Positions 2,524 to 18,875 of a DNA stretch of 64,000 bases are shown here, one piece after another (position 1 is the stretch's first letter; every line of letters starts with the position of its first letter). A program made the position numbers and the translations under genes. The stretch comes from Turbatrix aceti. Its lineage: Eukaryota > Nematoda > Chromadorea > Rhabditida > Panagrolaimidae. The stretch covers positions 9,728,180 to 9,792,179 of the forward strand of contig OZ017770.1 of NCBI GenBank assembly GCA_963969345.1, in the 5' to 3' direction. The notes beneath the pieces are model-generated. The model was not told the origin of the DNA and did not search any database. It was given only the letters and a program-made list of their open reading frames with translations.

Positions 2524-3648
2524 ATATTTATTTATTTATTTATTTATTTCACCATTACTCAGTGGTTAGTTATCATTAGACCAGATGTGACGTCCACGTA
2601 GGCGTAAATGTCTCGATTCGTTTTGGTCGCGATTTCTTCTTCCCATCGTCGCTGTGGTCTGTTTTTCGTCTTGTTGAACACCGAGTTGAGCGAATCGGCC
2701 CAGCGTAGGGAAGGGTGTCCCACGGGTCGTTTTCCTTGTGGTATCCACAAGGAAAACGTCTGCCTCCAGGAGCTTTCACGCGTATGTCCATTTTCGGCGT
2801 TCCGCTTCCTTCACCCAGTCTTTGAGTTTTGTTCTTCGTCGGATGATTTTGTTTCGGACTTTGTCAGAACGTCGCAGCCCGAGGATGGCTCGTTCGACTT
2901 GGTGTTGAGCATTGCGCAACGTAGATCTTGCCGTTTCTGTCAGCGCCCAGGTTTCACAGCCGTACAACACCGATGGCAAGATGCAGGCATGGATCAGGCG
3001 GCGCTTCAAGTACATTGGCGTGCGTTTGGAGCGCAGGAGATCTGAGTTCCGGTAGTAGATGGACCTTGCTGTCGAGATGCGATTACGTATCTCAACGACG
3101 TGGTTGCGCGGCCACTGCATCTTTTGGCCTAGATAGACGAACGACTGCACCCGTTGGATAACCAGGCCGTGGAGGGAGAGCTCGAAATCATCCTCGATGT
3201 CCTTGAGGAGAAGTCCGGAGGAGATAGGTCGCTGATCCCGCCGTTTCTGTACCATCCACTGCGTCTTCTTGACGTTGACTTCCAGTCCGACGTCCTTGCA
3301 GGCGATGGCCATATCCGACAGCATTTCCTGAAGTTCTTCGCCAGTGTGGGAGAAAAGAACGACGTCGTCAGCGTATGCCAAATACGCTAGCCGCTGACCA
3401 TCAACCTTGACGCCTCTGCCTGTCAGCTGTGCGGCGTTAAGGGCTCGTTGGAGAACTAGGATGAAAATTAGCGGGCTCAGCGTATCGCCTTGCCGTACTC
3501 CTTTCTGCGTTTGGAACTCCGCCGTCCTGTCGCCGACTTTGACTGCCGAGTTTCCAGCTGCATACAGCCATCGCACCAGTTCGGTGATGCCGGGATCCAC
3601 GCCGATGGAGTCAAGCGCTGCCCAGATTGAATCAAAGCTGATCGAACT
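2524..3648 (-). mobile_element. 5'-truncated RTE-like non-LTR retrotransposon fragment, copy 1
   Basis: The element lies on the minus strand. Its 3' end is at the left, marked by a (TTTA)n run at 2525-2551, which is an (AAAT)n tail on the element strand. RTE-clade elements are known for short 3' ends with such microsatellite tails. The body encodes the reverse transcriptase from around motif A (FDSI) to the C-terminus. It stops abruptly at about 3645-3650 at the sequence GCATGATCAACAATTT, which also occurs inside the foldback arms. No matching target duplication was found on the right, so that border has been rearranged or is a mosaic. Confidence 0.75.
2776..3630 (-). pseudogene. Reverse transcriptase fragment (RTE-like), broken
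   Basis: The minus frame encodes a non-LTR reverse transcriptase: the motif A remnant FDSI, the GVRQGDTLSPLIF block, the catalytic YADDVVLF box (about 3370-3395) and the thumb/C-terminal block with CILPSVLYGCETWAL. The endonuclease and N-terminal fingers are missing. After the residues WTYA the frame is lost. Compared with the copy at 5516-5930, this copy has 6 nt in place of 26 nt near 2750 (net loss of 20 nt, a frameshift). The remaining C-terminus continues in another frame at 2559-2750. The copy cannot be autonomous. Confidence 0.8.
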
Positions 3649-4719: not shown

Positions 4720-6805
4720 GCAGGTGACCTACTTTTACATAAGCTGGGGTTTGTTGAAAACCTGCGTCACACATACTAGCCTGAATTCGTCTGGACAAAA
4801 AACAAAATGCAAGCTTCACTACGTACACAAGTCGCGTTCTATAAATAAATGAACTTAAAAAAAATTCCTTTAGAAAAAAAGATTTTCCCATCGCGAAAAT
4901 TTGTTGTGCCGTAGGTCGCTGTGAGTCGCTCTGGGTGGCATTGGGTCGTTGGGGGAGAGGAGAGGGGAAATGCCGTACAATAAAATTTTCCCAAGTCATA
5001 AATTTTGTCACACGCCGCCGTGGGTCACTGTGTGCCGCTGTGGGTCACGGTTGACAATAACTGACTTTACAATTTACATACCGACTCACTATATACGTCA
5101 TCTAAAATAGGTTAAAGAACAATATTTAAAGCACAAAACATAGTATTAATAGCTCAATTTACTCATAATTTTAATAAATTTTGGTACTTCAATAAAAAAA
5201 ATTATTATTAGTACGTCGGAATAAAAAAATAAAAAAGAAGTGTACCCGGTCCCCCCCACCATTTTTGTTTTCTCAATTTCGCGACAGCGAAATTGAACCA
5301 AGGGCCTCAGCTAAATAGAGGCCCTCCTTAATTGGTGTTTTGGGCGTTCCGCTACAACTCCTTGAAAAGCACGCACTGCATGATCAACAATTTTTGACGA
5401 CTTTTTGCAGATTTAAATTTATCTATTATGCTTTCAGAAAGAGTTATTGATTTCTTACGCCTGTAAATTCATTGTGTCATAATTATTTGTAGTATTTTTT
5501 ATTTTCCAAATGATCATATTTATTTATTTATTTATTTCACCATTACTCAGTGGTTAGTTATCATTAGACCAGATGTTAGGAGGCACAAATGATGTCCACG
5601 TAGGTGTAAATGTCTCGATTCGTTTTGGTCGCGATTTCTTCTTCTCATCGTCGCTGTGGTCTAGTTTTCGTCTTGTTGAACACCGAGTTGAGCGAATCGG
5701 CCCAGCGTAGGGAAGGGTGTTCCACGGGTCGTTTTCCTTGTGGTATCCACAAGGTCAGTCGTCGGGCCCATCTGTTTTCGTCTGCCTCCAGAAGCTTTCG
5801 CGCGTAGGTCCATTTTCGGCGTTTCGCTTCCTTCACCCAGTCTTTGAGCTTTGTTCTTCGTCGGATGATTTTGTTTCGGACTTTGTCAGACCGTCGCAAC
5901 CCGAGGATGGCTCGTTCGACTCGGTGTTGACCAAATGATCCATTAAAGTTTATTGATAAGCTTTTCAAAAATCATTCGGTCATCCGCGTGAGTCGAAACC
6001 ACCAGGGCAAGTAATTTTTTTTGTTATCAAATTGATCATTTTGATAATAAAAAATATTATAAATATTTATGATACAATGAATTTACAGACGTAAGAAATC
6101 AATAACTCTTTCTGAAAGCATAAATGATAAATTTAAATCTTCAAAAAGTCGTCAAAAATTGTTGATCATGCAGTGCGTGTTTTTCAAGGAGTTGTAGCGG
6201 AACGCCCAAAACACCAATTAAGGAGGGCCCCTATTGATCTGGGGCCCTTGGTTCAATTTCGCTGTCGCGAAATTGAGAAAACAAAAATGGTGGGGGGGAC
6301 CGGGTACACTTCTTTTTTATTTTTTTATTCCGACGTACTAATAATAATTTTTTTTATTGAAATTTAATTGACGGACAAAAATGAAAAACTGACATTTAGT
6401 ACCAAAAATTAAAATTATGAGTAAATTAATCTATTAATACTATGTTTTGTGCTTTAAATATTGTTCTTTAACCTATTTTACGTAATCCTATGATGACATA
6501 TATAGTGAGTCGGTATGTAAATTGTAAAGTCAGTTATTGTCAACCGTGACCCACAGCGGCACACAGTGACCCACGGCGGCGTGTGACAAAATTTATGACT
6601 TGGGAAAATTTTATTGTACGGCATTTCCCCTCTCCTCTCCCCCAACGACCCAATGCCACCCAGAGCGACTCACAGCGACCTACGGCACAACAAATTTTCG
6701 CGATGGGAAAATCTTTTTTTCTAAAGGAATTTTTTTTAAGTTCATTTATTTATAGAACGCGACTTGTGTACGTAGTGAAGCTTGCATTTTGTTTTTTGTC
6801 CAGAC
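4720..6805 (+). repeat. Foldback element, copy 2 (symmetrical, interrupted)
   Basis: Here both arms carry the long outer region. The left side (4720-5505) reads inward as the reverse complement of the right side (5941-6805), an inverted repeat with arms of about 780 bp or more. The centre is interrupted by an RTE-like insertion (5516-5930). The right outer arm is cut at 6806 by the gypsy element, just after the sequence GTCCAGAC, which in copy 1 continues as GAATTCAGG. Confidence 0.8.
5506..5940 (-). mobile_element. 5'-truncated RTE-like fragment, copy 2, with target-site duplication
   Basis: The insertion (5516-5930, 415 bp) is bounded by the direct repeat CCAAATGATC at 5506-5515 and 5931-5940, which I read as a 10-bp target-site duplication. 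The left end carries the (TTTA)n run that marks the element's 3' end. The minus strand encodes the last part of the reverse transcriptase ORF (RVERAILGLRRSDKVRNKI and onward), followed by the same C-terminus as copy 1 but without its 20-nt net deletion. It sits in the spacer of foldback copy 2, so it is younger than that element. Confidence 0.85.
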
Positions 6806-6982
6806 TGTTACGTGTAGTGTGCACGTTGTGCACACTGAGACGTGACTCCTCCTACTCTGGGGAAATGGCTGCCTCGCAGCCCGGAGAACGAGAGAGACCA
6901 GTTGTGTAGTAGCTTATCGATACTATCAAGTTGTATTGGATCCAAATAAAGAGTTCCTAATAAGACCGAGCACTACATAACA
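6806..6982 (+). repeat. 5' LTR of the gypsy element
   Basis: 177 bp, starting TG and ending CA. It contains the palindrome-like GTGTGCACGTTGTGCACAC near its start and an AATAAA polyadenylation signal about 30 bp before its end. It is identical to 16277-16453. Confidence 0.95.
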
Positions 6983-8795
6983 TTGTGGAGGTCCTACCCG
7001 GCCTCCTGTCTTCCGGCCCCCGCGGAATAAACAGGAGGTCGGGGACGCATATTTTTTTTGTAATTACGGGTACCTCTGAAACTATCTGTTGTTGTAATTT
7101 TGTCTTCATGTCGAGTTTCTACACACTATCTATTTTTACTGGTATTTGAATTGTCGTCTGGTATTTTATTGGTTTTGCGGATATCGAATGAAGAAATGCG
7201 CGTTGGCATTCGGAATCGCTGGTCCAGGGCTAGCTTAAAAACAGCCTTCAAATAAAAAATGGTGTAGCAGGAACAAGAACCACCAGGATGGTGAGTCAAA
7301 GCTCTCATGAAATCGTCTCGATATCAGAAATGGCGAGGAAGGGATTCCCTCGACCCCTGCGCAGTTGTACTTACGACAACTAATCACCATTTAGTCTTAT
7401 TTCCATACAAAAGTCGGACCAAACAAGTATTTTTTTTTTTTTTTCAAAATGCGAGACGATGAAGCGATTCAACATCGAATGAAATTTATTACTATTTTAT
7501 CAAGCATGCAAAGAGAGCAGAACCCCCCACAGCATTTCGTTCCGCCGAGGATGGCGCCCCTCGACGTGGTCATTCGGTTCACAGTTCGCAACAGACCAAT
7601 CAATTTATTGGATAACACCAAAGCCAGTAAAATCAACAAATTACATGATCAGAATACATCGGCAACAGAGGATAGTCTTCAGACTCAACCACGGCTAGTC
7701 ATCGGCCACCAGATCACAGCGGCAACGACAGATGCGGCAACACCGCCGGCAACCACGGACGACACGCTGGCAAATCCAGAAGACCAGCTGAAAAAACAGC
7801 TCGATGCCGTGGAGCACGTGGAAAACGTGACAAAAGACGAGAAAATTCAGGATCGCCAGCAAACCAAGGAATACGATCCAGTTGCGCTCCATCACAGTAC
7901 ATGATGGACGCATCAAGGCGTGTGGCATCTCTTGTGAGGTGTGGACGCAAAAGACCGGTGCCGTCCAGCTGAAGTACCGCGCAGTGAAATACAGCCGAAG
8001 ACAATCAAAGACACCTACCCATGCGGACGCAGACACAGATTGTTTGGAGGGCAGTAGCCGCAGAACGTGAGGTTCGTCTCGACCCACTTCAAGACGGCAG
8101 CGTTTGGGATTTCCTCGGACATGTTAGCAGACAACTAATTCGCAGAATAGCAATGTGATCTACTGACAAAAATTGTCCTTGCGATGCTTACAGTCACGAA
8201 GTGACCGAAGGAGGGATCCCATTGCATAAGTAGATCCGCAATCACCCTCAAAGGAAAATCCATCTGGCAGCGCCTCATTAACATTTGTCACCTGCCGATG
8301 CTCACTGTCAAAAAACAACAGTTCAATGCATCTCTGTCCTTCGATTGCTCCGCGCGTTCAGAGAAAGTCTTTATCGCCAGAAAAGAAAAATACGCTCAGC
8401 AGGAAAGCGGAAAAAAAACCAGAAATAACCGCACAAGGCATCAAACATCATCCCAGCCACTAACACGTGAACGAGGCGATGTCAAGGGAGTTAGTGCGAT
8501 AATAACAACTGAGCAGGCACGCTCAACTGCAATTCTCTCCACAACAACGCCGAAACAAACAAGTTCTCTTCCGAGAAAAATGCAAAGCGGAAAGAGAAAA
8601 ACGAGCAAAGTCACGTACGGCGGCCTACTGTGTTTCCAAAAATAAAAATAAGGCATCAGAAATCTGGCAATAACCTCAAATGCATCAAACATCATCCCGA
8701 AAGGCGGAGAAGAACAACAAGAAAGGGAGAATAAACTTGACAGCGACATTCACACTCCCCGGCGGCGCGGTTGTTGTCATCTCGCGTGTGGTAGT
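6983..8795 (+). other. Long leader of the gypsy element with small ORFs
   Basis: 1.8 kb between the 5' LTR and the gag start. It holds a 151-codon ORF (7449-7904), preceded by a 14-T run, and a 115-codon ORF (8298-8645). I recognise neither. A strong 5'-splice-like sequence (ATG|GTGAGT, 7288-7296) suggests the leader could be spliced. Both ORFs are rich in Thr, Gln and charged residues and could be accessory products or simply untranslated leader. Confidence 0.5.
6986..7001 (+). promoter_or_regulatory. Candidate primer-binding site
   Basis: TGGAGGTCCTACCCGG starts three bases after the LTR's terminal CA. Read as the complement of a tRNA 3' end (CCA, discriminator, 7-nt acceptor strand, 5-nt T-stem), it implies an acceptor 5' strand GGTCCTA and a U discriminator. 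Both would be compatible with a tRNA-Gln type, but the host tRNA is not in this window. Confidence 0.55.
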
Positions 8796-11700
8796 ATGAT
8801 ATTACGGAACCAGCGCGTGATCCCTTATAACGAACCTAAAGCCCGACGCCGATTACAGAACCCCACTCTGGCCAACAACAGCGTCTTGGGTTATTTCTTC
8901 GGAAATAACGACGAGGAACAAGAAGAAGTGCAGGAAGCTCGACAGGAAATGGCCCAGCGAAGGCGAAATCGTCCGTTCCACGAGCTCGCCCCGTTTGACG
9001 GCTCAACAAGTTTGCCCGCCTTTATCAAACTCTTCAACCGGCTGGCCACAGCATCAGCATGGGACCCGGAGGAGCTCGTTGAGATCTTCCCTATTTACCT
9101 GCGCGGCTCGCCACTGGCCGCGTGGGAACAGGTCCCCGACGACCACAAAGAAGAATGGGAAGATGCACTGGCTGAATGGGCCGCTCGCCTTCCGAAAAAC
9201 AACGCTCCAGAACGAGCCCGGAACCAGCTGGCCAACAGGAAACAAAAGGTTGGAGAATCAGTAATGGAGCTCGCACAGGCAATGCGAGACTTGGCGGATA
9301 CGGCGTATCCGGAAGCAAACTTCACCCAAGAGGTGAAGGACCAACTAATAAAGGAGACACTACGGTACAACCTGCAACCAAAACTGAGGCAATTGGTACG
9401 CAACCGGCCGGCGGCCGCCACGCTCGACGAGGAGATCAACATGGCCGCTGAACAAGAAGCCGTACTCCAAGAAGGGCAGGAGGAAGAGGACGCAATTATT
9501 GCATTCGCCCGCCTGGATCTCCAAAATCGACGCACGAACAACGGTGTATCCTCGCGCGGCGGATGGCAACGGCGTGGAAATTCTTGGCGAGGTTACGGAA
9601 ACAGCAACCCGGGACAGTTCCAACGTTGGCAAAACAATCAACAAGGCTACCAGAACAATGCCGGCAATCGACGACCATGGCGACAAGATAACAACTTTAA
9701 CGACTACGGTAACAACGCTGGTCGTGGTCGCGGTCGTGGCCGAGGAGGTCAACGCGGACGTGGTCGCGGACAACAACGTGGTCGCGGCCGTGGATTCAAT
9801 CAGACGTTGCCTCTTCTGGCGGTCGTGGCAGTCATGTTCACAATGCTGCTAACTCCAACAGCGGCAGTGGACACAGCAAAGCAGGATGACACATTCCTAC
9901 GTGACGCCACCAACGAGGTTGTCGCTCTGCACTCAACACAACAGGCTCTGGTAACATCATGCCTTCCGGAACACCAGGTCGCAAAGAAAGTCATAGCCAA
10001 GCCGAAACACGTTGATTGTGCGCCGATTCCACCAGATGACTGGAAAGCCGTAAACCTACGTCTATTCGTACCGAAAACGACACCGACTCCAATTCCGATA
10101 GTACTCTGCACGCAAGTCGTTTACACCCGTTGGGCCTATTTCGTATTCTGGAAAAAGCAGGCGTGGAGTACTGTACCGCACACCATACATCGACCCGTAC
10201 CAGTCGAAGCTTGCAAAAGTTTCGCAGCTACCGGAAGCTACAATGGTATTGCACTTCGGCCAGTGACAACGGATAAGTGGACCACGGAGTTTGCCCTATC
10301 CGGTGATGAATACCCCTTCGTGGGTCAACACAATCTGACTTACACAACGGTGGTCGTTGAGCGAGCGCTAGCTCGGGCAGCTCGAGGACAAATGATGTCA
10401 CCGGCTGTCGATATGGCACGATGTCAACTGTCACAGGAGGCTTGCCAAGTCGCCAATTTGACGGTAGTCTGGACAGCACCCGAGGTATGCAACTTCATTG
10501 AAGTCGGCACATACAAAGGAAAAGCGGCAGACAACAAGATTATTCTACCAGAAGTGCAGATGGCATTTCGCACCTCGGAAAGTGGAAAACCGCCAGACTG
10601 TGTGCCGGAAGAAGCTCGAAAGTTGTCTAACGATGTCTGGGCAGTCATTCAAAACGTAGAACCCATGATACGACCAGCCGAACGAGCAGGACCGTACGTC
10701 CCGCAAAGGGTCAATGAACGAAAGCGGAGACAGGCTCATCGAATACAGGAAGTTGACGAAAATGCAGAGCCAGAAGTCCTACGGAAACCGATCATGGAAA
10801 CACCCAGACAAGCCCAAATCACGACAACTCTTAAACCGACAACAACAGTAACTACCACGGCGACACCAAAAACAAGCCAGACAACAACAGTACCTGTAAC
10901 ATCTACCACGATGCGTACAAGGCCGACCACAGGCAGGTCAACTGCGACGACTTCGACGACAACGAAAACCACTCCGTCGTCAACGACAATGACGAGTACA
11001 CGGCCCACAACCACTACAACGATGAGTTCGCCAACAACGAAAACGCCAGTCGTGACAAAGTCGACAACATTGCCGCCCACAACAACGGCAGCGCCGACGA
11101 CAACGACAACGGCAAAGCCGACAATGACAACGGCAAAGCCGACAACAACAACGGCAGCGCCAACGACAACGACGGCGACGGTCTCTACGACACAAAAGGT
11201 GACGACAACACTCCAGACCACTGCACACAGCCAACCAGAAACCACCACGAGAACGCAAACCACTTTGACAACAATAGTGCCCTCGACAACGAGTACTTCT
11301 GCGATGGAGACAACAACGACGGTGGCACCAACCACACCAACAACTGTCATCCCATCATCGGCGACAACGACACGCTGGATGCACGTCCCATTCCAACCAG
11401 TCGCACCACCCCATTCGGAAAAGCGACACAAGGACGCAGGCGAGGTAAAAAGAGCAAAAGGCATTGTGAACTCAACACAATTTCGCCGAGTACCCCGATA
11501 CAATCGATCAGTGCCAGCAACACTCACAGACTTGCAAGTATATTTCCTTCAACCAGTGTTGCACCGACATGGTCTGGGTACTTCCATGCGTCAACTACCT
11601 CCCGCACTAGCTCAAGTCGAAGGCCTTGCTCCCAGGACAAACCCAATTGAACAGCTTGATGGATCACACATCGAGGAAACACTCGGCACAGAGCAACTCG

Positions 11701-14700
11701 CACATGCAATCAACACGCGTGTGGAGTATGCAATCCATCAGCACCACCAACAACAAGTCGAAATGCTCACAGTTCTATGGCGAGCCACGTGTGAAAACTA
11801 CAATCGTGACGTCGACACCACAAATACTTTCCTTCAAATGGACCCCGATTTGGCAATTCGGAAGTGGTGGAGACGAAACGATGTCACAGCAGTATTGGCT
11901 GGCAATGCAATCGAAGTCCGGAAATGTTCAATACTAACGGTACAGAACGTCACGTGGAGCCCAGCAACAGGTCACAATGATTGTGCGTTGCGACCAAAGG
12001 TGATTTACAACAACCGCGAATACTACCTTGACTTGGCATCGTCCCGGCTAACTCGTGAAGCCAAGAGCAATGATTGTACACGGATGAGCGATCTCTATCA
12101 ACTTCAGAATGGCTCATTTGTACAAGGATCGGACATCATTAATGCCATCGTCGAGGAAAGTAAAATCGCGCCACCAGAAAACAAGGACACGGAACCGTTG
12201 ACAGCACCTGTAGTCTTCCAGAATGACGCAAACGAAGCTCTCAGTGCAGCTCGGCACCTTGAGAAACATTTAAACCGATTGGCAGTCCCAAACGACTTCC
12301 CAAACGATGAATTCATGGGCACCCTCAGTGATGAATGGAATATGATCGAATCAATTGGTCAAAAAATTGCCGAGGCGACAGAGCGTGGATGGTTCGAGAA
12401 AATCATGGATAAACTAGAAGAGCAGTTTGGAAGTTGGACAGTGATTTTTCTCATCATCACTGGCATCCTATCTTTGATGACCACGATTGTGCTACTTCGA
12501 TTTTTGCCAACCATGGTATTGCTTCGAGCAGCAGTAAGAACCTTTCGAGCACTAACAGCTAAGAAGGCGACACCGCCACCACGCCCGAGCGCACCCCCAA
12601 GGCTAGCAGTACATGCAACAGAGCTTCGTTCGTTGAAAGCCCCCGTGATTCACACGTTCATACCCACCGTGTGCGCCATCAATGTGCCAAAGAAGAACTT
12701 CACCACGGTGAGAGTAAACGGGAGAAAGACGCGAACGCTCATCGACACCGGTTCTAACGTCACGTTGTGTCGAGAATCCCTGGCACACACACTTCACTTG
12801 CCTATCGAAGCGCCAACACATCAATGTGCCACAGCAGTCAACAAGTCCACATTACCGTTTATCGGGCAGACCCACGGTGAACTGAAAATCGGCAACATGT
12901 CAATGCCAACTACAATGCTCATTGTCTCTGACGAGCATTGTCCAGCGCCGCTTCTCATTGGAGAAGATTTTCTACACCGCATGGGAAATGTGCAATTCGA
13001 CTACAACAAACGAACGATCACACTCGGTAATGGACAGACGACAGCAATGATCAACTTCATTGACGCTGCGCAGGCAACAAAACTGAAAGTCCAGGCTCTT
13101 GAACACCAAACGCTACAACCGCGTACCGAATCGATAATACTGGCCCACATACAAGACTGTCAACCAAACAAGGAGTACATTGTCGACTACACGGAAGAAA
13201 GAGTCGAAGGCTTCACAAGCGTCGCACGACAGGTTGTTCGAACCGACAAAACCGGAGTCGTGCCGATCCGGATACTGAACCCGCATAACACTGACGTTCG
13301 GTTGTGGAAAAACCAAACGATTGCGTTTGCTGAGCAAATCGATGATCAATCGTGTCCGACGGTATTTGAAGTTACAGTCAACACGAAAACGTACGTTCCG
13401 CCTGAAGCGAATCTACTGGACAAGATCCCAGAATATCCCTCCGAAATCACAAAGGAGAAGGATGAACTCAACCTCGAAGGTAGCATCCTTTCGCCGGCAG
13501 GAAAACGAAAAGTACGCAAGATCATCGACAGACATCCCAATGCATTCACGGGCAGCGACGGTATCATTGGCCACTACAACGGACCAATCCGGCACCGCAT
13601 CGACCTGACGGACGAGACCGCAGTAACCAGAGTACGCCCCCATCGCGTACCACTGAGTCTCAGAAGTGAAGTCCAGCGTCAGATCAAAGACATGCTGGCA
13701 CAGCGGATCATCCAACCGTCCACCAGCCCGTTTGCAGCACCGATCGTGCTGGTGAAGAAAAAAGACGGTAGTTACCGCTTCGCGGTGGACTACCGGGCCT
13801 TGAACAAGATCACGCGAAAACAAGTGTACTACCTGCCACAAATTTCCGAAATCATGGATATCGTCGGCGGCAAGGCAATCTATTCCACATTTGATCTTCA
13901 AGCAGGCTTCCATCAGATCGAAGTGGAGCCCCGACATCGCGAACGCACGGCATTCCTCACATTTGTCGGCCTCTTCGAATTCCTACGCATGCCATTTGGC
14001 CTCTGCGGAGCGCCGCAAACTTTCACTAATGTGATGGAAGGATTACGCCGTGAACTCAGTGCAGCGATCCTGATCTACGTGGATGACGTGATCATCAGCA
14101 GTCAAACAGAAGAGGAACATTTGCAGGACGTCGAGCAGTTCTTGACGGTCATGGAAAAGTACAACATGAAGCTGAAAAAGTCAAAGTGCACCATTGGGCA
14201 AGCAGAGATCAAATACTTAGGGCATCTCATTTCGGCCAAAGGTATTCGACCTGATCCGCAGAAAATTGCCGACATCAAAGGCCTCAAACGCCCAGCGACT
14301 CTCAAAGAGCTTCGCAGCCTCATCGGTGCGCTTAGTTACTTCCGACGCTTCATTCCAAAGTTCGCAGAAGTCATGCATCCCATGTACGATTTGACCAAGC
14401 AAGACAAAGACGTGAGCAAAGAATGGACTGCCGAACACGACACGGCACTTGAACAGGTCAAGCAGTTATTGGCGTCGGCACCAACACTGGCCGCGCCACG
14501 TGTCATGTTACCATTCGTCATCGAAACAGACGCGTCGGCGAAAGGAGTAGCGGCTGTGCTGTTGCAAGAACACGAAGACGGCCAACACCCCGTAGCCTTC
14601 GCGTCACGTAAGCTCAACAAACACGAAGCGAACTATCCAGCAGTCGAAACCGAGGCACTGGCAATTGTTTTCGCCATCAAAGAATTTCGCTGCTACGTAG

Positions 14701-16157
14701 AAGGCGCGCCTGAATCTGTACTAAGAACAGACAATAGCGCCCTCACTGCTTTACTCAGACGAAAAGACCTCACCGGACGCCTAGCTAAATACCAAATGGT
14801 CATCCAGGACGCAAATTTGAAGATCGAACATCGGTCAGGGAAGTCCAATCTTTGGTGTGACCACGTAAGCAGGTATCCGACGGAGCAACAGGTCAATGCA
14901 GTCATGGCACCACCAGAAGTCACAATCGAGAAGATTCAAGAAGAACAGAATAATGACCCGGAGACAAAAATGATATTGTTATACCTCAACAACCCCGTCG
15001 GCGATAATCCACTACCCAAGCAAATCCGCGCACGAGTCAAGATTCATGAAGGCACGATTGTACTGACTACTAAGGGTAACAAAAAGAATCGTCTGTGGAT
15101 TCCCACCACGCTACGTCGCGCCATGTTCAATGATTTCCATAGCCTGATCACACAAGGTGGACATCTTGGACAAGCACGCACACTCGACAAGATCAAGGAT
15201 CGTGCGTACTGGCCAGCAATGGACGCCGACGTTGCTAAGTGGACAAAAGAATGCGTCATCTGTCATCAAGCAAAAACGAAAGCAGGTGACCGCCAAGCGA
15301 CTCCACTACAGCCGATCCCACCAGCTACGCAACCGATGGAGCGAGTCCACATAGATCTGCTGGGACCGCTCCCCATAACGACGAAGGAAAACCGTTACGT
15401 ATTGGCCGTCATCGATGCTTTTTCGAAGTTCCTATGGGTCATGCCACTTACAAACATCACAGCAGACACAGTCATCAACGCTTTCATCGCAAACGTCATT
15501 GCTGTGGCTGGCGTCCCAACACTAGTCGTCAGCGATAACGGACGTCAATTTGTGAGTGCGGCCTTTATTGACTTGGGGAGGGCGATGGGCTTCGAACATA
15601 GAACCACGACCCCATACCACCCCCAGGCCAATGGCCAAGTTGAACGCTCCAACCGAACAATTGGCCACATCATCCGAAGCGCAGTGATGGAAACAACCGA
15701 AGTCGAATGGGACATCGCTCTACCATTCGCACAGATGGCCTATAACACGGCTACTCACGAGGCAACAGGGTTGGACCCTTTCCAGGTCATGTACCTGAGA
15801 GCGCCTCAGCTTCCATCAGACAACTTCCTACGCTTAGCAGACACAGAAACCAACTCCGCGCATATGCACGCTACAGCTGGAGCAGCACTTCGAATGTGGG
15901 AAACAATTCATAAAAAGCTGCAGACGCAAAATGAGCAGATGAAACGCAGCGCGGACCGTCAAAGAAAAGCCACTGAAAAGAAGATCGAAATCGGAGATCG
16001 AGTCCTGGTTACCGTCGACTACATGCCGCGTCAGAACAAGTTTTCTCCAAAATGGCGTGGACCATTCGAAGTCACCGCCCTACGCAACAAGAATGTACAG
16101 CTCGACGACAACACTTGGACTCACATTGATAAAATCAAACTCATGCATACACCTTAG
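8796..16157 (+). CDS. Gag-(env-like)-Pol polyprotein, 2,453 aa
   Basis: The start is the first ATG of the frame; the stop is TAG at 16155-16157. Residues 1-333 are Gag: a charged N-terminus, a helical capsid-like region, then RGG/GR-rich boxes (about 250-333) in place of a CCHC zinc knuckle. Residues 337-355 are strongly hydrophobic, like a signal peptide. Residues 356-1213 form a Cys- and N-glycosylation-site-containing ectodomain with a furin-type RKRR (642-645) and a Thr-rich mucin-like stretch (about 675-862). A second membrane span lies at about 1214-1243. Pol follows: aspartic protease LIDTGSN (about 1315), RT with IYVDD (Y1761), RNase H (about 1905-1990), and integrase with zinc-binding HHCC and D2187, D2247, E2283 (DD35E spacing), ending with WRGPFEV. 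The env-like call is inferred from topology, not from a recognised family. Confidence 0.93.
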   Translation: MILRNQRVIPYNEPKARRRLQNPTLANNSVLGYFFGNNDEEQEEVQEARQEMAQRRRNRPFHELAPFDGSTSLPAFIKLFNRLATASAWDPEELVEIFPIYLRGSPLAAWEQVPDDHKEEWEDALAEWAARLPKNNAPERARNQLANRKQKVGESVMELAQAMRDLADTAYPEANFTQEVKDQLIKETLRYNLQPKLRQLVRNRPAAATLDEEINMAAEQEAVLQEGQEEEDAIIAFARLDLQNRRTNNGVSSRGGWQRRGNSWRGYGNSNPGQFQRWQNNQQGYQNNAGNRRPWRQDNNFNDYGNNAGRGRGRGRGGQRGRGRGQQRGRGRGFNQTLPLLAVVAVMFTMLLTPTAAVDTAKQDDTFLRDATNEVVALHSTQQALVTSCLPEHQVAKKVIAKPKHVDCAPIPPDDWKAVNLRLFVPKTTPTPIPIVLCTQVVYTRWAYFVFWKKQAWSTVPHTIHRPVPVEACKSFAATGSYNGIALRPVTTDKWTTEFALSGDEYPFVGQHNLTYTTVVVERALARAARGQMMSPAVDMARCQLSQEACQVANLTVVWTAPEVCNFIEVGTYKGKAADNKIILPEVQMAFRTSESGKPPDCVPEEARKLSNDVWAVIQNVEPMIRPAERAGPYVPQRVNERKRRQAHRIQEVDENAEPEVLRKPIMETPRQAQITTTLKPTTTVTTTATPKTSQTTTVPVTSTTMRTRPTTGRSTATTSTTTKTTPSSTTMTSTRPTTTTTMSSPTTKTPVVTKSTTLPPTTTAAPTTTTTAKPTMTTAKPTTTTAAPTTTTATVSTTQKVTTTLQTTAHSQPETTTRTQTTLTTIVPSTTSTSAMETTTTVAPTTPTTVIPSSATTTRWMHVPFQPVAPPHSEKRHKDAGEVKRAKGIVNSTQFRRVPRYNRSVPATLTDLQVYFLQPVLHRHGLGTSMRQLPPALAQVEGLAPRTNPIEQLDGSHIEETLGTEQLAHAINTRVEYAIHQHHQQQVEMLTVLWRATCENYNRDVDTTNTFLQMDPDLAIRKWWRRNDVTAVLAGNAIEVRKCSILTVQNVTWSPATGHNDCALRPKVIYNNREYYLDLASSRLTREAKSNDCTRMSDLYQLQNGSFVQGSDIINAIVEESKIAPPENKDTEPLTAPVVFQNDANEALSAARHLEKHLNRLAVPNDFPNDEFMGTLSDEWNMIESIGQKIAEATERGWFEKIMDKLEEQFGSWTVIFLIITGILSLMTTIVLLRFLPTMVLLRAAVRTFRALTAKKATPPPRPSAPPRLAVHATELRSLKAPVIHTFIPTVCAINVPKKNFTTVRVNGRKTRTLIDTGSNVTLCRESLAHTLHLPIEAPTHQCATAVNKSTLPFIGQTHGELKIGNMSMPTTMLIVSDEHCPAPLLIGEDFLHRMGNVQFDYNKRTITLGNGQTTAMINFIDAAQATKLKVQALEHQTLQPRTESIILAHIQDCQPNKEYIVDYTEERVEGFTSVARQVVRTDKTGVVPIRILNPHNTDVRLWKNQTIAFAEQIDDQSCPTVFEVTVNTKTYVPPEANLLDKIPEYPSEITKEKDELNLEGSILSPAGKRKVRKIIDRHPNAFTGSDGIIGHYNGPIRHRIDLTDETAVTRVRPHRVPLSLRSEVQRQIKDMLAQRIIQPSTSPFAAPIVLVKKKDGSYRFAVDYRALNKITRKQVYYLPQISEIMDIVGGKAIYSTFDLQAGFHQIEVEPRHRERTAFLTFVGLFEFLRMPFGLCGAPQTFTNVMEGLRRELSAAILIYVDDVIISSQTEEEHLQDVEQFLTVMEKYNMKLKKSKCTIGQAEIKYLGHLISAKGIRPDPQKIADIKGLKRPATLKELRSLIGALSYFRRFIPKFAEVMHPMYDLTKQDKDVSKEWTAEHDTALEQVKQLLASAPTLAAPRVMLPFVIETDASAKGVAAVLLQEHEDGQHPVAFASRKLNKHEANYPAVETEALAIVFAIKEFRCYVEGAPESVLRTDNSALTALLRRKDLTGRLAKYQMVIQDANLKIEHRSGKSNLWCDHVSRYPTEQQVNAVMAPPEVTIEKIQEEQNNDPETKMILLYLNNPVGDNPLPKQIRARVKIHEGTIVLTTKGNKKNRLWIPTTLRRAMFNDFHSLITQGGHLGQARTLDKIKDRAYWPAMDADVAKWTKECVICHQAKTKAGDRQATPLQPIPPATQPMERVHIDLLGPLPITTKENRYVLAVIDAFSKFLWVMPLTNITADTVINAFIANVIAVAGVPTLVVSDNGRQFVSAAFIDLGRAMGFEHRTTTPYHPQANGQVERSNRTIGHIIRSAVMETTEVEWDIALPFAQMAYNTATHEATGLDPFQVMYLRAPQLPSDNFLRLADTETNSAHMHATAGAALRMWETIHKKLQTQNEQMKRSADRQRKATEKKIEIGDRVLVTVDYMPRQNKFSPKWRGPFEVTALRNKNVQLDDNTWTHIDKIKLMHTP

Positions 16158-16264: not shown

Positions 16265-16276
16265 GGGTGGGGAGGA
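16265..16276 (+). promoter_or_regulatory. Polypurine tract of the gypsy element
   Basis: GGGTGGGGAGGA lies directly before the TG of the 3' LTR, the position where plus-strand priming occurs in LTR elements. It has one interrupting T. Confidence 0.75.
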
Positions 16277-16453
16277 TGTTACGTGTAGTGTGCACGTTGT
16301 GCACACTGAGACGTGACTCCTCCTACTCTGGGGAAATGGCTGCCTCGCAGCCCGGAGAACGAGAGAGACCAGTTGTGTAGTAGCTTATCGATACTATCAA
16401 GTTGTATTGGATCCAAATAAAGAGTTCCTAATAAGACCGAGCACTACATAACA
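16277..16453 (+). repeat. 3' LTR of the gypsy element
   Basis: Identical to the 177-bp 5' LTR. Its last three bases (ACA) abut the N gap. Confidence 0.95.
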
Positions 16454-16653
16454 NNNNNNNNNNNNNNNNNNNNNNNNNNNNNNNNNNNNNNNNNNNNNNN
16501 NNNNNNNNNNNNNNNNNNNNNNNNNNNNNNNNNNNNNNNNNNNNNNNNNNNNNNNNNNNNNNNNNNNNNNNNNNNNNNNNNNNNNNNNNNNNNNNNNNNN
16601 NNNNNNNNNNNNNNNNNNNNNNNNNNNNNNNNNNNNNNNNNNNNNNNNNNNNN
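16454..16653. other. Assembly gap (200 N)
   Basis: A run of 200 N begins exactly at the end of the 3' LTR. The round length suggests a placeholder. The sequence after the gap is not the continuation expected for foldback copy 2 (GAATTCAGG...), so adjacency across the gap is uncertain. Confidence 0.95.
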
Positions 16654-16689: not shown

Positions 16690-18875
16690 TTACTTTACTA
16701 AAGAAAAATGGAAGAGCTGTGTCAGAGGCCAGGAAAAGTAAAATCTTGGATTAACGGACTAGGGGTATAATTAATTGCCAAATAGAAAGACCCAATGATA
16801 GAAAACAAGGCACCGTTGATACAAAAAGGCAGATGCCAAAAAAAATAGAGATACCGACTGGCTAATAGAGGAACAAATTGCCGCACAGCAAAAAAATGAT
16901 GACAAAGAAGATGAAAAGGGAACGATGAGCAAGACGGACACATGCTTTTGTGCTAGAAAAAAAAGGCAAACAGTTATTTATGTGAGCTGTCATAGCTCGA
17001 CAGAAGCGCTGCATCAAACGTATCAACCCGAATCCATTCGGTAAGATAAAACACGCAGGCTTCACCAGATTAACGAAAAAAGCGCAGACAGCACAATAAT
17101 TTTGAAAGAAACACATAGACAACCACCTTTACTCCGAAACGACCGAGTTGACACGATCGACTGCTGCGCACAATCATGCCAAAACACACTAGTTGGGAGA
17201 ACAATTCGGTTGATCACCGTTTAACATAATCGATACAAAAAGGCATAACAAAAAGAAGATGTGAACATAACAACAATCTGTCAGACAAGTATCGAGCTTT
17301 ATACGAGTAAAACAATAGTGATGGATAACAATTACACATATGTATATAAAGAACGCCGGGTAAAACGTAAGAACAAAAATTGAGCAGCAGAAACAATATA
17401 ACAACGCTACGAATACAAAATCGTGAGCAACGAAAGACGAGTAAAACAGACGCATGTTTTTCCGAAAGAAATGGCAGGTGACCTACTTTTACATAAGCTG
17501 GGGTTTGTTGAAAACCTGCGTCACACGTACTAGCCTGAATTCGTCTGGACAAAAAACAAAATGCAAGCTTCACTACGTACACAAGTCGCGTTCTATAAAT
17601 AAATGAACTTAAAAAAAATTCCTTTAGAAAAAAAGATTTTCCCATCGCGAAAATTTGTTGTGCCGTAGGTCGCTGTGAGTCGCTCTGGGTGGCATTGGGT
17701 CGTTGGGGGAGAGGAGAGGGGAAATGCCGTACAATAAAATTTTCCCAAGTCATAAATTTTGTCACACGCCGCCGTGGGTCACTGTGTGCCGCTGTGGGTC
17801 ACGGTTGACAATAACTGACTTTACAATTTACATACCGACTCACTATATATGTCATCATAGGATTACGTAAAATAGGTTAAAGAACAATATTTAAAGCACA
17901 AAACATAGTATTAATAGATTAATTTACTCATAATTTTAATTTTTGGTACTAAATGTCAGTTTTTCATTTTTGTCCGTCAATTAAATTTCAATAAAAAAAA
18001 TTATTATTAGTACGTCGGAATAAAAAAATAAAAAAGAAGTGTACCCGGTCCCCCCCACCATTTTTGTTTTCTCAATTTCGCGACAGCGAAATTGAACCAG
18101 GGGCCCCAGATCAATAGGGGCCCTCCTTAATTGGTGTTTTGGGCGTTCCGCTACAACTCCTTGAAAAACACGCACTGCATGATCAACAATTTTTGACGAC
18201 TTTTTGCAGATTTAAATTTATCTATTATGCTTTCAGAAAGAGTTATTGATTTCTTACGCCTGTAAATTCATTGTGTCATAATTATTTGTAGTATTTTTTA
18301 TTTTTCTATTAAAGTTTATTGATAAGCTTTTCAAAAATCATTCGGTCATCCGCGTGAGTCGAAACCACCAGGGAACAGCAAGTAATTTTTTTTATTATCA
18401 AATTGATCATTTTGATAATAAAAAATATTATAAATATTTATGATACAATGAATTTACAGACGTAAGAAATCAATAACTCTTTCTGAAAGCATAATAGATA
18501 AATTTAAATCTGCAAAAAGTCGTCAAAAATTGTTGATCATGCAGTGCGTGCTTTTCAAGGAGTTGTAGCGGAACGCCCAAAACACCAATTAAGGAGGGCC
18601 TCTATTTAGCTGAGGCCCTTGGTTCAATTTCGCTGTCGCGAAATTGAGAAAACAAAAATGGTGGGGGGGACCGGGTACACTTCTTTTTTATTTTTTTATT
18701 CCGACGTACTAATAATAATTTTTTTTATTGAAGTACCAAAAATTAAAATTATGAGTAAATTGATACTATGTTGTTTTGTGCTTATAAAATTGTTCTTTAG
18801 CCTTTAGCCTATTTTACGGCAGTTTAAAATACGAGTTACATATCGATCGACGTAGCGTTTGCTTGAGAATTTTTT
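16690..18875 (-). repeat. Foldback element, copy 3 (inverted relative to copy 1)
   Basis: The outer region occupies 16690-17830. It includes the GTGACCCACGGCGGC block in reverse and a further ~700 bp also found, in the other orientation, at 24745-25440. The left arm is at about 17850-18300, the spacer with GTCGAAACCACCAGGG at about 18330-18390, and the right arm at about 18400-18790. The right end has the TTTAAAATACGAG...GACGTAGCG tail, the same asymmetric end as copy 1. The spacer has five extra bases (AACAG) compared with copies 1 and 2. No coding capacity seen. Confidence 0.8.

Follow-up and report, generated by a model that had tools for sequence, protein, structure and literature searches.

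A glycoprotein B-like fusogen in frame between gag and protease in Ty3/gypsy-type elements of one host genome, and its possible expression as a polyprotein

Retroviral genomes follow the textbook order gag-pol-env, with Env made from a message of its own. In LTR retroelements, envelopes taken from other viruses have been described within the BEL/Pao group, where the accessible text reports that Cer7 obtained its envelope from a herpesvirus, Tas from a phlebovirus and Anakin from a chuvirus (PMC7642597). An envelope resembling herpesvirus glycoprotein B (gB) is described for the annelid Ty3/gypsy element Dingle in the available part of PMC7854359. A different kind of additional protein is CERV of the Cer1 element, which according to the available text is required for export of the genomic RNA (PMC10309623, PMC3315495).

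Here we analyse an element found in a window of 64,000 nucleotides (the whole stretch of DNA considered), on contig C6 of a host assembly of 59.9 Mb in 28 contigs. We read it as one of a diverse host group of Ty3/gypsy-type LTR elements in which a gB-like fusogen lies in frame between Gag and protease and is made as part of one polyprotein, and give this reading a probability of about 0.6. The gene order, the common frame, the identity of the fusogen, the recurrence across families and the low dN/dS among related copies are established at the level of sequence, while the expression as one chain is argued below.

Organisation and copies of the window element

Between two identical LTRs the window element has a single open frame of 2,453 codons (Table 1), and its translation in three pieces contained no internal stop, in agreement with the first-pass annotation. 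The protease, reverse transcriptase (RT), RNase H and integrase which that annotation had placed downstream all score above the Pfam cut-off and stand in the Ty3/gypsy order, and the LTR pair has the TG...CA ends of Ty3/gypsy (Metaviridae) elements. The usual order of env-bearing retroelements, with env downstream of pol, is not seen here, and a CERV-like gene 3′ of the integrase is absent, the end of the frame at 16157 and the start of the 3′ LTR at 16277 being 119 bp apart. The leader (6983-8795) contains 26 ATGs upstream of the gag start. No tRNA match was found for the primer-binding-site-like stretch, whose 15-base pattern occurs at 7 places, at least five of them copies of the element.

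Table 1. Features of the window element, in window coordinates
Feature	Position	Strand	Basis or remark
5′ LTR	6806..6982	+	177 bp, TGTT...AACA, direct repeat 100% identical to 16277-16453
Primer-binding-site-like stretch	6986..7003	+	begins TGG..., just 3′ of 5′ LTR
Leader ORF, 151 aa	7449..7904	+	without Pfam match
Single open frame, 2,453 codons	8796..16157	+	no internal stop
Gag, residues 1-340	8796..9815	+	position and P0008 gag-region match; C-terminus RG-rich
Internal signal-like hydrophobic segment, ORF 341-359	9816..9872	+	hydropathy; small residues TAA near end
gB-like ectodomain, N-terminal part	9945..10658	+	alignment A2; aligned to gB; model pLDDT 50-86 per ten-residue block
Furin-like RKRR motif, ORF 642-645	10719..10730	+	sequence motif
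Mucin-like T/S/P-rich insert, ORF 656-882	10761..11441	+	composition
Fusogen C-terminal half, PF24664	11694..12158	+	Pfam E 2.5e-7, 29.5 bits, cut-off 27
Fusogen membrane span, ORF 1210-1239	12423..12512	+	hydropathy
Retroviral-type aspartyl protease	12705..12980	+	PF13975, E 8.4e-11
Reverse transcriptase	13752..14225	+	PF00078, E 7.8e-31
RNase H	14424..14807	+	PF17919 and PF17917
Integrase, H2C2 zinc finger and rve core	15099..15623	+	PF17921, PF00665
Polypurine-tract-like GGGGAGGA	16269..16276	+	immediately before 3′ LTR
3′ LTR	16277..16453	+	177 bp, TGTT...AACA; 200-N gap adjoins 3′ end

Though a Pfam scan of the window Gag gave neither a gag nor a zinc-knuckle match, we count it as recognisable because the gag region of the protein P0008, which has a Retrotrans_gag match, finds the gag part of an identical copy on contig C2 (E 7e-11). 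The N-terminal Gag of the first-pass annotation is thus supported by position and by this match, with residues 1-340 assigned in place of 1-333. Its signal-like segment and membrane span are likewise present, at 341-359 rather than 337-355 and at 1210-1239 rather than 1214-1243. Both were located by simple hydropathy, which alone is no proof of a span, since the scan also peaks inside the window integrase; similar peaks inside the RT of P0008 indicate that they are not specific. Met codons occur within the hydrophobic segment of the window element too.

The copy on C2 contains no N and is flanked by the 4-bp target-site duplication ATTG; its gag, env and pol parts are 100% identical to those of the window element, while most of its 5′ LTR and leader are missing. 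Since it is identical and free of N, the window ORF is not an assembly chimera. Target-site duplications were read at this copy and at one on C5 (CTTA); the 3′ flank of the window copy consists of 200 N (16454-16653). With identical LTRs and an identical second copy, the window family has evidently spread recently. The C5 copy has lost a stretch from env into RT, and three others (L017, C6:10131200-10136700; L018, C4:9760500-9766000; L019, C6:1707400-1712900) have lost the same internal stretch, between position 828 in gag and position 1740 in pol, and with it env, protease and the RT core. They resemble a non-autonomous derivative that has spread; in L019 there is also a run of 200 N. We considered the deleted copies as spliced retrocopies and rejected this, as the junctions read in C5 and L018 are without GT...AG ends and look like short-homology deletions, the other two copies being judged by BLAST breakpoints only.

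Around the element, 6046-6805 and 17543-18302 form 760-bp inverted repeats (99% complementary), whose left arm abuts the 5′ LTR, and the element has therefore apparently inserted into a palindromic repeat. A piece of another reverse transcriptase (PF00078, E 4.4e-18) lies at 2779-3600 on the minus strand, and L013 and L014 (C6, about 9.61-9.62 Mb) are decayed remnants of env and pol from a related element, lying in opposite orientations. Myosin, JmjC and fibronectin-type genes are carried by the host, and with its tandem SL1-RNA-like genes (below the Rfam cut-off) they point to a nematode as the most probable host.

Identity and recurrence of the fusogen segment

The first-pass annotation had called the segment between gag and pol envelope-like, and Pfam, profile and structural comparisons support it as an envelope-type fusogen, probably of the gB-like class III. 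PF24664 was above cut-off in Pfam scans of the window, L011 and L012, while PF00606 was found in L011 and L012 only and below cut-off. When the A2 env profile was compared with solved structures (PDB), it matched herpesvirus gB (E 1.8e-6); P0002 alone gave no PDB match at E 1, and A3, the env profile that stands for the second lineage, likewise none at E 0.1. A2 and A3 are nevertheless related to each other, as hhalign joins them with a probability of 98.9 across 224 columns of their N-terminal part. Herpesvirus gB has ten cysteines in five conserved disulfides, and ten cysteines, possibly paired likewise, are invariant across the five A2 rows, six in the N-terminal part (49, 68, 98, 133, 225 and 262 in P0002 numbering) and four in the C-terminal half (659, 704, 723 and 754). 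The AlphaFold model of the segment is weak (mean pLDDT 47.4, pTM 0.31), and in structural comparison all 50 of the matches listed for it were gB, which supports a gB fold. The mucin-like insert is shared by the window family, L011 and L012, and P0008 and P0009 lack it. A first protein search, in which 8,000 candidates were scored, many of them probably drawn by this T-rich insert, returned one match, and the P0005 region 880-1220 gave no homologue at E 0.01.

Searching the host genome with PF24664 we found at least 31 loci, 30 of them above cut-off, whereas 14 control genomes searched in the same way gave no match. The RT and RNase H piece of the window had at least 67 matches in the host genome (both counts being lower bounds). 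When loci were paired if an RT match lay on the same strand within 5 kb of the fusogen, 25 of the 31 had one near and six had none, and the fusogen was upstream of RT in 25 of 25. The arrangement proposed in the first-pass annotation thus recurs at these host loci and in P0008, with P0009 a further case in which no gag was recognised. Fusogen and RT share a frame, as judged by equal frame length, at 22 of the 25 loci, in frames of 2,126-2,762 aa at 20 of them and of 1,712 and 1,859 aa at the other two. Of the 42 fusogen-free RT matches, 21 occupy frames of at least 900 aa, twenty measuring 948-1,566 aa and one 2,344 aa.

Individual loci give a similar picture. For instance, the single frame of L025 contains zinc knuckles at 79 and 97, a signal-like segment at 215, a membrane span at 773 and the protease motif DTGA at 878, and both L035 and L039 have gag zinc knuckles 5′ and a protease 3′ of the fusogen region, the fusogen call in L035 coming from the genome search, PF24664 being absent from the list of its Pfam matches. 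L046 was given a gag-env-pol label despite a fusogen match that falls short of the Pfam cut-off. P0008 (2,486 aa) is a single protein with gag, fusogen, RT, RNase H and integrase, and P0009 (3,263 aa) has helicase, fusogen, protease, RT, RNase H and integrase. The AAA-type helicase matches of P0009 (residues 583-1002, 5′ of the fusogen) either stem from a fused gene prediction or mark a genuine additional domain. In L011 gag, fusogen and protease share one frame and RT lies in a second, overlapping one, so that either the single frame is not universal or this copy has decayed. The fusogen is preceded by a hydrophobic segment and followed by a span in the window, L011, L012, P0008, P0009, L025, L026 and L035; L039 has the first hydrophobic peak and no second. 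Two aspartyl-protease stretches with DTG motifs (ORF 1376-1468 and about 1530) lie between fusogen and RT in L039. Additionally, four fusogen loci (C1:8247320, C1:11825330, C6:4965340 and C21:4313) have equal scores and the same 2,285-aa frame, which suggests that they too spread recently; L026 and L027, the two of these that were compared, match at all 1,251 codons.

In an RT tree of 17 rows (15 host loci of the 67 matches, P0008, and P0009 on a long branch, without named reference elements), a branch with 100/100 support splits ten gag-env-pol rows from six fusogen-free rows, the latter defined solely by having no PF24664 match near. The remaining, unlabelled row, L055, has the 2,344-aa frame without a PF24664 match and falls on the gag-env-pol side. 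Being unrooted, the tree allows a single origin of the gag-env-pol elements without proving it.

We estimated dN/dS for nine pairs of close copies, over stretches reaching from late gag through env into early pol. Five comparisons over 1,137-1,139 codons gave 0.044-0.159 and a sixth, over 652 codons, 0.096; for the nearly identical L039 and L040 it was 0.302, based on a very small number of changes, and the last two pairs showed none at all. Values of 1.14 and 0.57 in two subregions of close copies come from five and three changes. Between L025 and L035, at dS of 1.25-1.76 and hence near saturation, dN/dS was 0.084 and 0.139 in the env core, 0.234 before it and 0.161 after it, and between L035 and L039 it was 0.355 with dS saturated at 2.24. 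On the whole these values point to purifying selection.

Routes by which Env may be made

In the reading we prefer, the genomic RNA would yield a single Gag-Env-Pol chain on translation. The hydrophobic segment that follows Gag would act as an internal signal that takes the Env part into the ER lumen while Gag stays cytosolic, and the second span would stop transfer, leaving Pol again in the cytosol. Signal peptidase might cut after the small-residue site, the element's own aspartyl protease on the cytosolic side, and furin possibly at the RKRR site, so that the chain threaded through the ER would end as three products, Gag, the Env fusogen and Pol. Small residues do precede the presumed cleavage point in most of nine compared rows, judged by eye. 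With the fusogen, particles might then pass from cell to cell, for example into the germ line. Retroviruses make far more Gag than Env or Pol, and the ratio of 1:1:1 implied by a single chain, being unlike theirs, is a point against the polyprotein.

Env could instead come from a separate subgenomic mRNA, arising either by a cis-splice that starts in the leader or by trans-splicing of an SL to a site in the 3′ part of gag, with the frame that is open throughout the genomic RNA a mere by-product. The model here is C. elegans Cer1, which in the available text has no stop between gag and pol, yet makes a spliced cerv mRNA (PMC10309623). A donor-like GTGAGT at 7291 in the leader would fit, though donor-like sites are fewer (3) than in shuffled sequences (6.6), and tandem SL1-RNA-like genes in the host genome, all below the Rfam cut-off, suggest trans-splicing. 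Five of the nine compared rows have a Met 3, 18, 21, 23 or 54 residues upstream of the signal, which makes a separate Env start possible there. However, the nearest upstream Met is 125 residues away in the window, 152 in L011, 176 in L012 and 67 in P0009, so that these four lack an Env start codon where one would normally be expected. Nor did simple consensus scans of the window element place a 3′ splice site close to where env begins: the acceptor consensus is matched just three times along the element, nowhere before 13731, and 6983-9950 has no CAG or TAG preceded by at least four T in six bases, although weak sites are possible. As the distant Met and the lack of a consensus 3′ splice site near the env start together favour translation through from Gag, we judge a separate message unlikely, if far from negligible. 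Splicing could also act by treating the env segment as an intron of the gag-pol mRNA, giving Gag-Pol when it is removed and Gag-Env when it is retained. The shorter frames of related fusogen-free RTs in the host (the 20 of 948-1,566 aa, presumably gag-pol) are what this would predict, but none of four internally deleted copies lacks just env (three deletions run from gag to RT and one from env to RT), the junctions in C5 and L018 have no GT...AG ends, and an acceptor-consensus site near the protease start is absent. The intron that the first-pass annotation had named as a possible refutation thus did not hold up, and we consider it very improbable.

The same annotation had raised a host mucin gene as the origin of the segment, and capture of such a gene, or an assembly artefact, might be suspected from the T-rich insert (10761-11441) and from the 200-N gap adjoining the 3′ LTR. 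The T-rich stretch is, however, an insert inside the fusogen, missing from P0008 and P0009, which nevertheless have the fusogen 5′ of RT; the fusogen recurs at the 31 or more host loci, in the same order wherever an RT is near; and the N-free copy on C2 is identical. We give this explanation almost no credence and regard it as refuted as far as sequence can refute it. A different doubt concerns function, and would be compatible with either way of making Env: the fusogen might act only between cells of the same animal, or have a role other than entry during assembly at the ER, the element being non-infectious. Fusogens of the gB type are the virion entry proteins of herpesviruses, which argues for entry, though the two roles would look alike here. 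The Drosophila MDG1-group elements offer a precedent, passing from soma to germ line by means of a small membrane protein instead of Env, as the available preprint text has it (PMC11952523). We think a non-infectious element rather doubtful.

The polyprotein reading can be carried further, by analogy and more tentatively. In flaviviruses, one chain contains the capsid, the glycoproteins inserted into the ER and the cytosolic enzymes. In what would be a deep lineage comprising the host elements and those of the P0008 and P0009 sources, Gag, a gB-type Env and the enzymes might similarly be one chain passing twice through the ER membrane, which would tether Gag beside Env at a fixed ratio and let assembly take place there; we put this at slightly below even odds. 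Flaviviruses are unrelated, and the likeness serves as a working analogy only.

Comparison with described elements

In the literature searched, which covers subscription papers sparsely, we found no element described as having an envelope in frame between gag and pol. A recurrent lineage with the fusogen inside the gag-pol frame would mean that envelope capture can give a different gene order, one that has lasted in many families, and the control of Gag, Env and Pol amounts, as well as their topology, would need rethinking. Surveys for env restricted to the region downstream of integrase would miss such elements. Since one host has many copies with long open frames, their expression is directly testable.

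Several described elements share parts of this organisation. Cer1 is likewise a nematode Ty3/gypsy element without a gag-pol stop and with a third protein, but its CERV is described, in the accessible text, as encoded downstream of pol, nuclear and not envelope-like (PMC10309623, PMC3315495). The sORF2 of Drosophila MDG1 elements is a fusogen-like gene away from the 3′ end, as in the window element, though in the available preprint text it is a membrane protein of ~70 aa with its own ORF upstream of gag, and not gB-like (PMC11952523). Bdelloid rotifer LTR elements have also captured a viral fusion glycoprotein (TelKA, of paramyxovirus type); as far as the accessible account goes, their env-like gene is a separate ORF3, usually downstream of pol, and of class I type (PMC5408684). 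Cer7, Tas and Anakin resemble the window element in being retroelements with an envelope taken from another virus, and differ in having a BEL/Pao rather than a Ty3/gypsy pol, and in Roo, Tas and Cer7 the envelope is placed downstream of the polyprotein (PMC7642597, available part). In Dingle a Ty3/gypsy pol and a gB-like envelope already occur together; according to the available text its envelope lies downstream of integrase (PMC7854359), whereas that of the window element stands in frame between gag and protease, a position without counterpart in the literature searched.
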